Assembly (NCBI GenBank): GCA_018644935.1
Contig: JABGPL010000009.1
Coordinates: 1 to 64,000, forward strand
Length of the DNA: 64,000 nt
Direction: 5' to 3'
DNA from: Calditrichota bacterium
Lineage (GTDB): Bacteria; Electryoneota; AABM5-125-24; Hatepunaeales; Hatepunaeaceae
Every line of letters begins with the position of its first letter. Position 1 is the first letter of the stretch. The notes beneath the pieces were generated by a model, which saw only the letters and a program-made list of their open reading frames with translations, was not told the origin of the DNA and made no database searches. The position numbers and the translations under genes are program-made. Positions 22,613-26,367 of the stretch are shown one piece after another.

Positions 22613-23263
22613 ATGAAAAGTCCGTATTTTACACAGAATTCTATTCAAGATCAGAGCCTGGAGTTTCTAAGAGATTTTAGACACCCAAACAGGTGCATAA
22701 ACATAAATCTTTTAGAAGGCAGGACCGCTCTGCTGATTCTGGATATGCAGCGATATTTTCTGGATCCCACATCTCATGCGTTCATCCCCAGTGCCCCCGC
22801 AATTATACCCGGTTTAATCAGATTGATTAAGAGCTTCATTAGATCCGAACGCCCGGTTGTATTGACTCAGCATATCAACACTGAGGCAAATGCCGGGATG
22901 TTAAACGTCTGGTGGTCGGATGTAATCAAGGAAAGTAGCTCATTGAGTGGAATTGTCCCTGAGCTCAAAACGAAACCGGTAAAGATTATAATTAAACCAC
23001 AGTACGATGCTTTCTACAACACCGAACTTGACAAATACCTGAAGGGCATGGGTACGGAGCAGGTAATTATCTGTGGCGTAATGACACACCTATGCTGTGA
23101 AACTACCGCACGTTCTTCGTTTGTTCATGGCTACAATGTGGTTTTTCCGGTGGACGGTTCGGCGACATATGATATCGAGTTTCACAGAGCCACATTGAGA
23201 AATCTCTCGCATGGTTTTGCATCTTTAACATCAATAAATGAATTGTGCGAGTTGTTGGATTAA
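22613..23263 (+). CDS. Isochorismatase-like cysteine hydrolase
   Basis: A 216-residue member of the cysteine hydrolase family that includes isochorismatase, nicotinamidase and N-carbamoylsarcosine amidase. The triad is visible: D44 in LILDMQ, K128 in IKPQYDAF and C161 in THLCCETTAR, with the preceding cis-peptide region GVMTH. Substrate cannot be assigned from sequence. The next gene starts in its stop codon (TAATG), so hydrolase and flavoprotein are made together. It opens the operon that also encodes a radical SAM enzyme, GmhB and RsmI. Confidence 0.85.
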   Translation: MKSPYFTQNSIQDQSLEFLRDFRHPNRCININLLEGRTALLILDMQRYFLDPTSHAFIPSAPAIIPGLIRLIKSFIRSERPVVLTQHINTEANAGMLNVWWSDVIKESSSLSGIVPELKTKPVKIIIKPQYDAFYNTELDKYLKGMGTEQVIICGVMTHLCCETTARSSFVHGYNVVFPVDGSATYDIEFHRATLRNLSHGFASLTSINELCELLD

Positions 23264-24144
23264 TGAAATTTTTTGATACCGCCATCATCGGAGCCGGTCC
23301 GGCTGGTATTGCAGCAGCAATTCAACTCCAACGATTTGGAATTAGTACCGTTATTTTTGAGAAGGACAAAATCGGCGGACTGCTTCGAAACGCCAATTTA
23401 GTAGAGAACTATCTGGGCTTTCCATCTGGAATCACCGGCAAGCAGTTGACCCGATTAATGGAAAAACATTTAAATTCGGTAAACTCTACCGTTCATAGTG
23501 AAACCGTTGAAGATGTTGAGTACATCAACTCGAAATTTGTTATAAAAACATCTCGCTCATACCTGAGTAAAACACTCATAATTGCAACGGGGACTGACGC
23601 GAAACCATCTTCTGTTTCGGGTTTTGATCCTTCAACCGAACCCATGATAATCACAGAAGTTCACCAGATTGAAGATTGCGAAAATCGCAGAATAGCAGTT
23701 ATTGGTGCTGGGGATGCTGCCTTCGATTATGCTCTAAATCTTGCCAGAAAAAACTGGGTTACGATCAATAATAGAAGCAGTCGAAGATTGTGCCTGCCTT
23801 TGCTTTGGACTCGAGTTGGAGATAAGGTGAATATTGAATATCGCGAAAATTGCACAATTCAGAGCACAAAACTGAAAAATGATCAACTTCAATTGAATTG
23901 GAATAGAGATGGTGTTGAATTCAACGAGATTGTGGATTATCTTGTTTTGGCTATCGGACGGAAACCAAATCTGAGCTTCATTAGCAAGGATTTATCCCTG
24001 AAAATTAGTGATCTTGAAGAAAAAGGATTGCTACACTTCATCGGTGATGTCAGGAACGGCATTTTCCGACAGGCATCAATAGCAGCAGGGCAGGGGATAC
24101 ACGCAGCAATGGCACTGCATCTAACACTTAACAGGAAAGGTTAG
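23263..24144 (+). CDS. Thioredoxin-reductase-like FAD/NAD(P) oxidoreductase without CxxC
   Basis: About 293 residues with two Rossmann folds: FAD site GAGPAGIAAAIQL near the N-terminus and NAD(P) site VIGAGDAAFDYALNLA (about 144-159), plus IGDVRNGIFRQASIAAGQGIHAA at the end for FAD. The layout is that of low-molecular-weight thioredoxin reductases, but the redox CxxC between the two folds is absent, as in ferredoxin/flavodoxin-NADP reductases of this group. ATG at 23263 overlaps the upstream stop; a GTG 18 bases earlier is less likely. It may supply electrons to the radical SAM enzyme encoded one base overlap downstream. That link is inference. Confidence 0.82.
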   Translation: MKFFDTAIIGAGPAGIAAAIQLQRFGISTVIFEKDKIGGLLRNANLVENYLGFPSGITGKQLTRLMEKHLNSVNSTVHSETVEDVEYINSKFVIKTSRSYLSKTLIIATGTDAKPSSVSGFDPSTEPMIITEVHQIEDCENRRIAVIGAGDAAFDYALNLARKNWVTINNRSSRRLCLPLLWTRVGDKVNIEYRENCTIQSTKLKNDQLQLNWNRDGVEFNEIVDYLVLAIGRKPNLSFISKDLSLKISDLEEKGLLHFIGDVRNGIFRQASIAAGQGIHAAMALHLTLNRKG

Positions 24145-25103
24145 TGAAAGTAATTTCAAAATTGGGTGACGAGAAAATCGCAACGGTTTTCATTGCCCAG
24201 ACTGAAGATAAACAAAAGATTGAATTCGTAGAGTCCGTTGAACCACCGATATCTCGTGAAGAGAAGTGGGTTAATATTGTCTCCACTCTTTTTGGTTGCC
24301 CGGTGGGCTGCAATATGTGCGATGCCGGTTCTGGATATTCAGGAAAGCTAACTGTAGAACAAATACTTTTCCAGATAGATTATCTAGTTCAGCATAGATA
24401 TCCTGATCTCAACATTCCAGCGAAAAAGTGGAAAATACAATTTGCTCGGATGGGAGAACCCGCTTTGAATCCGGCAGTTCTGGAAGTCCTACGGTGTTTA
24501 CCGGATCGTTATAGTGCACCTGGTCTAATGCCATCCATCTCAACCATCGCTCCTCGAGGAGTTCAAAACTTCTTTGATGAACTTGTTGAAATTCACAGCA
24601 ACCTGTTCATCGGACATTTTCAATTCCAATTCTCGGTACATAGTACAGATCCAGTTCAGCGCAAACAGCTGATACCTGCCAGAACCTGGGATCTAACCGA
24701 AATGGCGGATTATGGTGAGAGGTTCTTCACTCCCAGAGACAGAAAGATTGCTCTGAACTTTGCCCTGATGGAAGGTGTTACTGTTGATCCCAAAGTGCTG
24801 CGGGATCATTTTAATCCTGAAATGTTCATAATCAAACTGACTCCGCTGAATCCAACTTTTCGAGCAGGTGAAAACAACCTGCTCTCGTCTTTCATGAAGC
24901 CAGAACACCGTGACAAGCTGGTGAAAGAACTTAAAGCTCATGGTTTCGAGGTAATTGTAAGCCTCGGTGAACTTGAGGAAAATGCGATTGGTAGTAATTG
25001 CGGTCAATACGTGTCAGCAATGGAAAACAGAATTATCGAAGAACCCGAAGCTTATTCTTACGAAAAAGAAGAACTTGTCGCTTGCGAATTAATCAATGAG
25101 TAA
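24144..25103 (+). CDS. RlmN/Cfr-like radical SAM protein (short form)
   Basis: A 319-residue radical SAM protein. The [4Fe-4S] motif is CPVGCNMC (C52, C56, C59; CxxxCxxC). Further blocks parallel RlmN/Cfr: ARMGEPALN (their MGxGEPLxN), FSVHSTDPVQRKQLIPA (their SLHA...R..L.P), a PLNPTFRAG segment, and near the end SNCGQ with C286 where RlmN has its methyl-carrying cysteine (ACGQL). This suggests class A methylation chemistry. The N-terminal RNA-binding domain of RlmN appears missing or reduced. The GTG start overlaps the flavoprotein stop by one base. The substrate is not evident; it need not be rRNA. Confidence 0.78.
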   Translation: MKVISKLGDEKIATVFIAQTEDKQKIEFVESVEPPISREEKWVNIVSTLFGCPVGCNMCDAGSGYSGKLTVEQILFQIDYLVQHRYPDLNIPAKKWKIQFARMGEPALNPAVLEVLRCLPDRYSAPGLMPSISTIAPRGVQNFFDELVEIHSNLFIGHFQFQFSVHSTDPVQRKQLIPARTWDLTEMADYGERFFTPRDRKIALNFALMEGVTVDPKVLRDHFNPEMFIIKLTPLNPTFRAGENNLLSSFMKPEHRDKLVKELKAHGFEVIVSLGELEENAIGSNCGQYVSAMENRIIEEPEAYSYEKEELVACELINE

Positions 25104-25641
25104 CCGTTTTATCATTCTCGATCGTGACGGAACGGTCATCGTTGACAAGCATTATCTAGACAATCCCGATGGAGTCGAATTACTACCCGGAGCTGTGCAG
25201 GGTCTGCGAAAAATGATTGATGCGGGTTATTCACTAATCTTCGTATCTAACCAGTCTGGGATAGGAAGAGGTCTGTTTGATGTTGCTACGCTTGATGCAA
25301 TTAATCAGCGAATGACCAATATTCTCGAACAAGAAGGCATCTCCCACAAAGGTATCTATTACTGCCCCCACACACCCGAAGAAAATTGCTCCTGTCGTAA
25401 ACCACGCACTGCTCTCGTAATAAACGCAATTGCCGAACACGGATTCCAACCTGAAGAATCATGGGTAATAGGAGACAAAGCCGCTGACATCAATCTGGGA
25501 AAAGCAGTTAACGCCAGAAGCATTTTAGTTCTGACTGGAAAAGGAACTAAGACCAACGAAGAAAATTTGGTGTCCGCTGACTACGAAGCAAATAATTTGA
25601 CGGATGCCGCTGATTTCATAATTCAAACCGACAATAAGTGA
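25096..25641 (+). CDS. gmhB: D-glycero-D-manno-heptose 1,7-bisphosphate 7-phosphatase
   Basis: A 181-residue HAD phosphatase of the GmhB type, acting in the cytosol in ADP-heptose synthesis for lipopolysaccharide. Motifs: nucleophile D9 and acid D11 in LDRDGT, SNQSGIGRG, the zinc loop CPHTPEENCSC (C90, H92, C98, C100) and VIGDKAADI. The length is normal. It overlaps the radical SAM gene by 8 bases. Zinc-loop HADs also include histidinol and related phosphatases, but the SNQSG..RG pattern fits GmhB best. The remaining heptose genes are not in the window. Confidence 0.85.
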   Translation: MSNRFIILDRDGTVIVDKHYLDNPDGVELLPGAVQGLRKMIDAGYSLIFVSNQSGIGRGLFDVATLDAINQRMTNILEQEGISHKGIYYCPHTPEENCSCRKPRTALVINAIAEHGFQPEESWVIGDKAADINLGKAVNARSILVLTGKGTKTNEENLVSADYEANNLTDAADFIIQTDNK

Positions 25642-25644
25642 TCT

Positions 25645-26367
25645 ATGGGTATTCTATACGTAATTGCAACCCCGATTGGCAATATGGAAGACATTACTCT
25701 TCGGGCAATTCGCATTCTCGGTGAAGCTGATGTCCTGGCAAGTGAGGACACCCGAGTCACAAAGAAAATTTATGCCCGTCATGGCATACATATCCCGCAA
25801 ATAGTCTTTTCATATCACGAGCATAACGAGCGTTCCGGTGGCAGGCGTATTTTAGAGGCTCTCAATAACAATTCGACCGTAGCCTTAACCAGCGACGGCG
25901 GCAGCCCCGGCATCAGCGATCCCGGATATAGAATCATAAATGAGGCAATCGAGACTGGCCATCAGGTAGAAGTAATCCCCGGACCCAGCGCAGTAATCAC
26001 CGCAATGGTTGCATCCGGCTTCCCCTCATCAAGCTTCACCTTCAAAGGTTTCCCACCCCGAAAACCCGGACCCCGCAAACGCTTCCTCGATATGGACAAA
26101 GATCTTCCCCACACGTTAGTAATCTACGAATCCCCTTACCGGGTATCGAAACTTTTAGTAGATGCTCTCGAAGTACTCGGCAACAGAATGGCAGCCGTCT
26201 GCAGCGAACTCACAAAGAAATTTGAACGTGTCAGGCGAGGTTCCATCCAGGATTTAATAACCCAATTTCACGGAAAGAAGATCAAGGGTGAAGTGACGAT
26301 AGTGATAGCCGGAAATCATCCGAAGTTTTTGCGTGATGTTGAGGATGATTCCGAAGACGAGTCGTAG
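25645..26367 (+). CDS. rsmI: 16S rRNA (cytidine(1402)-2'-O)-methyltransferase RsmI
   Basis: A 240-residue tetrapyrrole-methylase-fold enzyme that 2'-O-methylates C1402 of 16S rRNA in the decoding centre. Signatures: LYVIATPIGNMEDITLRA at the N-terminus, ASEDTRVTKK, SDGGSPGISDPG and IPGPSAV. It starts 3 bp after gmhB and is the last gene of this operon. Its C-terminus is acidic (VEDDSEDES) and shorter than the usual 270-290 residues; its stop codon TAG lies inside a palindromic element, which may have replaced the original end. Confidence 0.9.
   Translation: MGILYVIATPIGNMEDITLRAIRILGEADVLASEDTRVTKKIYARHGIHIPQIVFSYHEHNERSGGRRILEALNNNSTVALTSDGGSPGISDPGYRIINEAIETGHQVEVIPGPSAVITAMVASGFPSSSFTFKGFPPRKPGPRKRFLDMDKDLPHTLVIYESPYRVSKLLVDALEVLGNRMAAVCSELTKKFERVRRGSIQDLITQFHGKKIKGEVTIVIAGNHPKFLRDVEDDSEDES

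Follow-up and report, generated by a model that had tools for sequence, protein, structure and literature searches.

A three-gene set with overlapping codons

The locus described here lies in a 64,000-nucleotide stretch of DNA (the window), which belongs to contig C202 in a metagenome-assembled genome (4.5 Mb) from the phylum Electryoneota. Three plus-strand genes, which we call HYD, FAD, and rSAM, follow one another without a gap. HYD (positions 22613–23263; 216 amino acids) encodes an isochorismatase-fold cysteine hydrolase, FAD (23263–24144; 293 amino acids) an FAD/NAD(P) flavoprotein of the thioredoxin reductase (TrxR) fold that lacks a CxxC motif, and rSAM (24144–25103; 319 amino acids, GTG start) a radical S-adenosylmethionine (SAM) protein resembling a shortened RlmN, hereafter mini-RlmN. 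The HYD stop codon TAA shares one nucleotide, at 23263, with the FAD start codon ATG (TAATG), and the FAD stop codon TAG shares one, at 24144, with the GTG of rSAM (TAGTG). A preliminary description of the window had proposed that the first three genes of 22613–25641 overlap and are coupled; all three are real coding open reading frames (ORFs) at these coordinates, and the coupling is confirmed.

A radical SAM protein with a single class A cysteine

RlmN and Cfr are the defining class A radical SAM methylases and, to our knowledge, act on RNA substrates only. The structure of the rSAM protein predicted by AlphaFold (predicted local distance difference test [pLDDT] 90; predicted template-modelling [pTM] score 0.89) has its best PDB matches in Foldseek to RlmN (6fz6 and 3rfa, both C118A mutants) and Cfr (9p0p), in agreement with the RlmN/Cfr-like core that had been proposed. 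The protein consists of a single radical SAM domain with a CX3CX2C motif and scores far under the cut-offs of the Pfam and NCBIfam models of RlmN and Cfr (49.5 versus 290 bits for the RlmN model). Its alignment to the RlmN model begins only at about position 84, and the predicted structure opens with a beta extension. Judged by this alignment and by the predicted fold, the N-terminal helical RNA-binding domain of RlmN and Cfr is absent, as the preliminary description had suspected.

Class A enzymes depend on a pair of conserved cysteines; Cys118 of RlmN (Cys105 of Cfr) is indispensable for resolving the protein–RNA adduct and probably acts as the base that takes a proton from the ring carbon, and Glu105 of RlmN deprotonates the carrier cysteine (PMC9692996). 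Profile alignment (hhalign) of the mini-RlmN family to RlmN places most of this equipment. The CX3CX2C residues Cys52, Cys56, and Cys59 (codons within 24297–24320) align with the RlmN cluster cysteines and are conserved in all 88 family members, as are Glu27 (24222–24224), at the position of Glu105, and Cys286 in the C-terminal NCGQ (24996–25007), at the position of the methyl carrier Cys355 of RlmN. Within the SAM site, conservation of the GEP, SxH, and NP motifs is 93–100 per cent. The position of the resolving cysteine, in contrast, is occupied by Ile45 (24276–24278) in the window and by Ile in 52, Leu in 23, Met in 7, Val in 3, Thr in 2, and Cys in 1 of the family members, so that the resolving cysteine is gone in 87 of 88. 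The same position holds a cysteine in all ten RlmN proteins, the Cfr(D), and the two phage proteins that we compared.

In a phylogenetic tree that includes canonical RlmN and Cfr, the mini-RlmN family falls outside the group formed by these two, on a long stem and with 100/100 support, rather than clustering within true RlmN. A canonical rlmN that exceeds the model cut-off (331.7 bits) lies elsewhere in the window's genome, and 16 of 29 additional carrier genomes also have one above it; the six archaeal genomes do not. Because the two coexist in these genomes, mini-RlmN is no replacement for rlmN. The rSAM protein may thus act like RlmN and Cfr, yet by the features of sequence and predicted structure tested here it is neither.

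The flavoprotein and the hydrolase

The FAD protein carries both Rossmann domains (for FAD and NAD(P); Pfam Pyr_redox_2/3), and its best NCBIfam model is thioredoxin reductase, at 136 bits against a cut-off of 343. No CxxC precedes the second Rossmann motif (at most four cysteines per column among 85 sequences), which extends the reading of a CxxC-less flavoprotein from the window to the family. The AlphaFold model (pLDDT 92; pTM 0.87) matches thioredoxin reductases best in Foldseek, with a template-modelling (TM) score of 0.86 to the flavin-reducing (FR) structure 5mh4 and of 0.58 to the flavin-oxidising structure 5mjk; the predicted geometry would be that of hydride transfer from NAD(P)H to the flavin. 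In its FAD and NAD(P) Rossmann domains and its closeness to the FR form, the protein resembles TrxB and the CxxC-less, TrxR-fold ferredoxin–NADP reductases. It differs from TrxB in the missing CxxC, in the region of the HRR NADPH motif, which mostly reads L-N-R, and in its strict pairing with the mini-RlmN gene.

HYD belongs to the Isochorismatase family (PF00857; 129 bits, cut-off 27) and has a putative Asp44/Lys128/Cys161 triad (Cys161 codon at 23093–23095). Among 58 HYD members, Lys128 and Cys161 are invariant and Asp44 is Asp in 55, the other three having gaps; its identification as an isochorismatase-fold hydrolase is confident. Like RutB, biuret hydrolase, and the protein of PDB entry 3irv, HYD is an isochorismatase-fold cysteine hydrolase. 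Unlike the members of known substrate, it stays under the cut-offs of all substrate-specific models (the best equivalog scores 58.8 against 195 bits), and its family has an invariant His87 and an invariant Trp100-Trp101 pair.

Recurrence, pairing, and spread

The set recurs in many bacterial and archaeal phyla: at least 542 GTDB genome stretches, nearly all from metagenome assemblies, carry the rSAM gene. Carriers include Chloroflexota, Fermentibacterota, Zixiibacteriota, Cloacimonadota, Bipolaricaulota, Thermoplasmatota, Asgard archaea, and Methanomicrobiales. The gene for rSAM occurs in 18 of 39 Electryoneota genomes, 23 of 80 Krumholzibacteriota genomes, and 10 of 150 genomes from the order of Methanoculleus. 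The locus statistics that follow refer to the 80 best loci from other genomes, those most like the window's family, and ignore kinship among genomes.

FAD lies immediately upstream of rSAM at 74 of the 76 testable loci, 46 of these 74 having a 4-nt overlap between the two genes; with FAD directly before rSAM in 74 of all 80 loci, the coupling seen in the window is not due to chance. HYD lies upstream at 62 of 72 testable loci. Across Electryoneota, FAD homologs are present in all 18 rSAM-bearing genomes and in none of the other 21, whereas some HYD homolog occurs in 24 of the 39. Because of these pairing counts, FAD and rSAM form the core of the module and HYD is a frequent but dispensable partner. 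We considered whether a HYD paralog acting in trans could be the missing partner and rejected the idea: a paralog of about 36–40 per cent identity is found both in carriers of the triplet and in non-carriers, in no conserved context. The comparison of neighbourhoods across loci found no fourth gene that is universal beside the triplet.

The preliminary description had hinged in part on the triplet recurring in other genomes, which it does very widely. Among the 80 best loci, identity to the window's rSAM is 50–59 per cent across both domains of life, and the family tree intermixes phyla, which together point to horizontal spread. Nothing relevant to the triplet or to RlmN-like enzymes of small molecules appeared in the literature that we searched, whose coverage lacks most subscription journals; the three-gene set is apparently undescribed.

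Corrinoid and one-carbon context

Twelve Krumholzibacteriota genomes have the triplet as the last part of a seven-gene operon, and in two of them the contig starts inside the operon. In its complete form the order is an MttC-type corrinoid protein, a homocysteine S-methyltransferase-like gene, a MetH-activation-like gene, MttB (PF06253), HYD, FAD, and rSAM, with MttB and HYD spaced by −8 to +78 nt. One Electryoneota locus (L038) has the same four corrinoid methyl-transfer genes in divergent orientation beside FAD–rSAM. Outside Krumholzibacteriota the triplet also appears to lie, occasionally, inside Wood–Ljungdahl clusters. At two Chloroflexota loci, genes for two CooC-type ATPases come directly after it, and the flanks hold MetF/MetV and RACo/AcsE-like genes at one (L090) and CODH/ACS-like genes at the other (L097). 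On a Syntrophaceae contig (L109), a CooC-type gene comes after rSAM. The MetF/DUF5981 and CbiA/CooC-type ATPase labels come from Pfam; those of RACo, AcsE, CODH, ACS, and MetH activation come from reading the sequences, as does that of a cluster of UROD-family, homocysteine-methyltransferase, and corrinoid-protein genes (L217) in the window's genome.

Stand-alone corrinoid proteins occur in 13 of the 18 triplet carriers among Electryoneota versus 2 of the 21 other genomes (Fisher test, P = 8e-5, uncorrected for phylogeny). Taken together, these gene contexts suggest that the triplet is tied to corrinoid one-carbon metabolism.

A possible class A-like methylase of a small molecule

From the coupling, the recurrence, the motifs, the predicted folds, and the genomic contexts, we infer a chemistry, a direction of electron flow, and a class of substrate. 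In our preferred reading, to which we assign a probability of roughly 0.42, rSAM methylates a small molecule in the manner of a class A enzyme, FAD serves as its own flavin reductase, and HYD is an accessory amidohydrolase, all in a corrinoid-linked pathway. Because the SAM and [4Fe–4S] site, Cys286, and Glu27 are all kept, the reaction most likely begins with the loading of a methyl group from a first SAM onto Cys286. A 5'-deoxyadenosyl radical from a second SAM would then convert the Cys286-bound methyl to a methylene radical, which would add to an sp2 carbon in a small heteroaromatic compound rather than in RNA. Since the resolving cysteine is absent, release of the product would need a different base, from another residue or from the substrate. 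FAD would use NAD(P)H to reduce the rSAM cluster, or the thiyl radical that remains once the product has left; a role as electron donor fits its pairing with rSAM (18/18 versus 0/21), its CxxC-less TrxR fold, and its FR-like model. HYD might cleave an amide-type bond in a precursor or a product and can be missing; the processing of the rSAM product that the preliminary description had put forward is only one option, because HYD is dispensable (62 of 72 loci). Probably the pathway supplies or modifies something that corrinoid-dependent one-carbon metabolism uses.

Several points weigh against this reading. By alignment, the resolving cysteine that is essential in RlmN and Cfr is missing from rSAM, and therefore the known methyl-transfer route cannot be assumed. 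FAD is not beside rSAM at two loci (L093 and L109). The corrinoid association (13/18 versus 2/21), being uncorrected for phylogeny, may reflect anaerobic life; at most triplet loci no corrinoid gene is nearby, and the window's genome lacks MttB.

The missing cysteine also opens the way to a different radical reaction, in which rSAM is no methylase and Cys286 serves in another role, as a hydrogen-atom donor or in thioether or thiyl chemistry. In its favour, a single class A cysteine remains out of two, and the sequence is distant from RlmN and Cfr. Against it, the motifs GEP, SxH, and NP are retained, as are the carrier cysteine of CGQ and the counterpart of Glu105, and we regard this alternative as rather unlikely.

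It is improbable that mini-RlmN still modifies RNA, such as a tRNA adenosine, recognizing it through other surfaces with HYD and FAD in supportive roles. The core fold and SAM site are indeed RlmN-like, and relatives occur in phages, some of them near tRNA genes. However, rSAM is without the RNA-binding domain, a canonical rlmN coexists in many carriers, the phage relatives have neither HYD nor FAD annotated nearby, and an RNA substrate gives no rationale for the coupling with genes of an amidase-like enzyme and of the MttB corrinoid type.

The abutting or overlapping of the MttB and HYD genes in the 12 Krumholzibacteriota genomes could instead mean that the module degrades a quaternary-amine compound, MttB removing a methyl group and the triplet handling the remainder. 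MttB is, however, absent from the window's genome and from beside most other triplets, which makes this highly improbable.

More doubtful still is that the product of rSAM is 2-methyladenine or a methylated adenine lower ligand, giving rise to the cobamide Factor A, with HYD and FAD remodelling or reducing the corrinoid: the chemistry of RlmN is methylation of adenine at C2, the triplet has corrinoid gene contexts, and Factor A has 2-methyladenine as its lower ligand (PMC9426567), but we lowered this possibility because CobT (PF02277), the lower-ligand phosphoribosyltransferase, is found in none of the 39 Electryoneota genomes, 18 of which have rSAM and FAD.

Returning to the small-molecule methylase, we would go further only tentatively, to a new class of radical SAM methylases from the RlmN/Cfr lineage that combines a single carrier cysteine, a small-molecule substrate, and an NAD(P)H–flavin reductase of its own in a horizontally spread, anaerobic, corrinoid-linked pathway not yet described. 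If true, a relative lacking both the RNA-binding domain and the resolving cysteine would show how class A chemistry was transferred to another substrate, and the family would put the need for the second cysteine to the test. The spread across bacteria and archaea would imply an undescribed metabolite or cofactor step shared by anaerobes. The module occurs in methanogens of the cultured genera Methanoculleus and Methanogenium, where its pairing with a likely reductase makes the proposal directly testable. The interpretation in the preliminary description stands in part: the mini-RlmN features, including the invariant NCGQ cysteine, and the recurrence held, but it had missed the loss of the second catalytic cysteine and the corrinoid methyl-transfer context.

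Neighbouring genes

In the window the same-strand run continues with a GmhB-like HAD phosphatase gene (25096–25641; 173.7 bits to the NCBIfam GmhB-type model, cut-off 178), which overlaps rSAM by 8 nt, and ends with an RsmI-like rRNA methyltransferase gene (25645–26367; identified by sequence reading only), 3 nt farther downstream. Neither recurs beside the triplet in the neighbourhoods from other genomes; the GmhB-like gene is co-operonic with the triplet in the window but outside the conserved module. The NadA and porin genes beside the Krumholzibacteriota operon we judged to be shared synteny, not partners. In two Chloroflexota, an adenosine deaminase gene lies directly upstream of the triplet (L077:5314–6411 and L078:5312–6337), which would be relevant if the substrate were an adenine derivative. 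In a Methanomicrobiales genome (G200), rSAM is broken into two pieces that lie in separate ORFs (L192:8001–9253), through a frameshift or an assembly error.

Phage relatives and links considered

The phage relatives of mini-RlmN (phrog_24834; among others in Moorella phage MTATph1 and Bacteroides phage Versailles) are likewise short RlmN-like radical SAM proteins (at most 35 per cent identity; 137 bits), but in addition to the lack of annotated HYD or FAD neighbours, some of them keep the resolving cysteine and some are without the CGQ tail. The gene of MTATph1 (L127:5839–6801) is split, its core ending at a TAA and its CGQL tail forming a downstream ORF in the same frame. In Pectobacterium phage Arno18 (L131:5824–6699) the protein stops before the tail with the carrier cysteine, and the next ORF does not supply it. 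Vibrio phage 496E54-1 (L130:3120–6813) has a mini-RlmN with both cysteines, encoded right after genes of the ribose-phosphate diphosphokinase and nicotinate phosphoribosyltransferase families.

Viral cargo was rejected as an explanation of the triplet, IMG/VR holding no relative that bears the family's peptide patterns, and so was anti-phage defence, with no PADLOC match to rSAM or HYD and only weak Rossmann matches to FAD. An isochorismatase-like gene near orphan selD has been named in the literature (PMC5029168, PMC9312934); a link to selenium was set aside, since 34 of the 39 Electryoneota genomes have a selD above the cut-off irrespective of the triplet, which makes the gene uninformative. 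In many Electryoneota members selD has one in-frame TGA, and at one locus (L124, on contig C475 of genome G038) the selD homolog lies within a 738-amino-acid open frame that is possibly a fusion.

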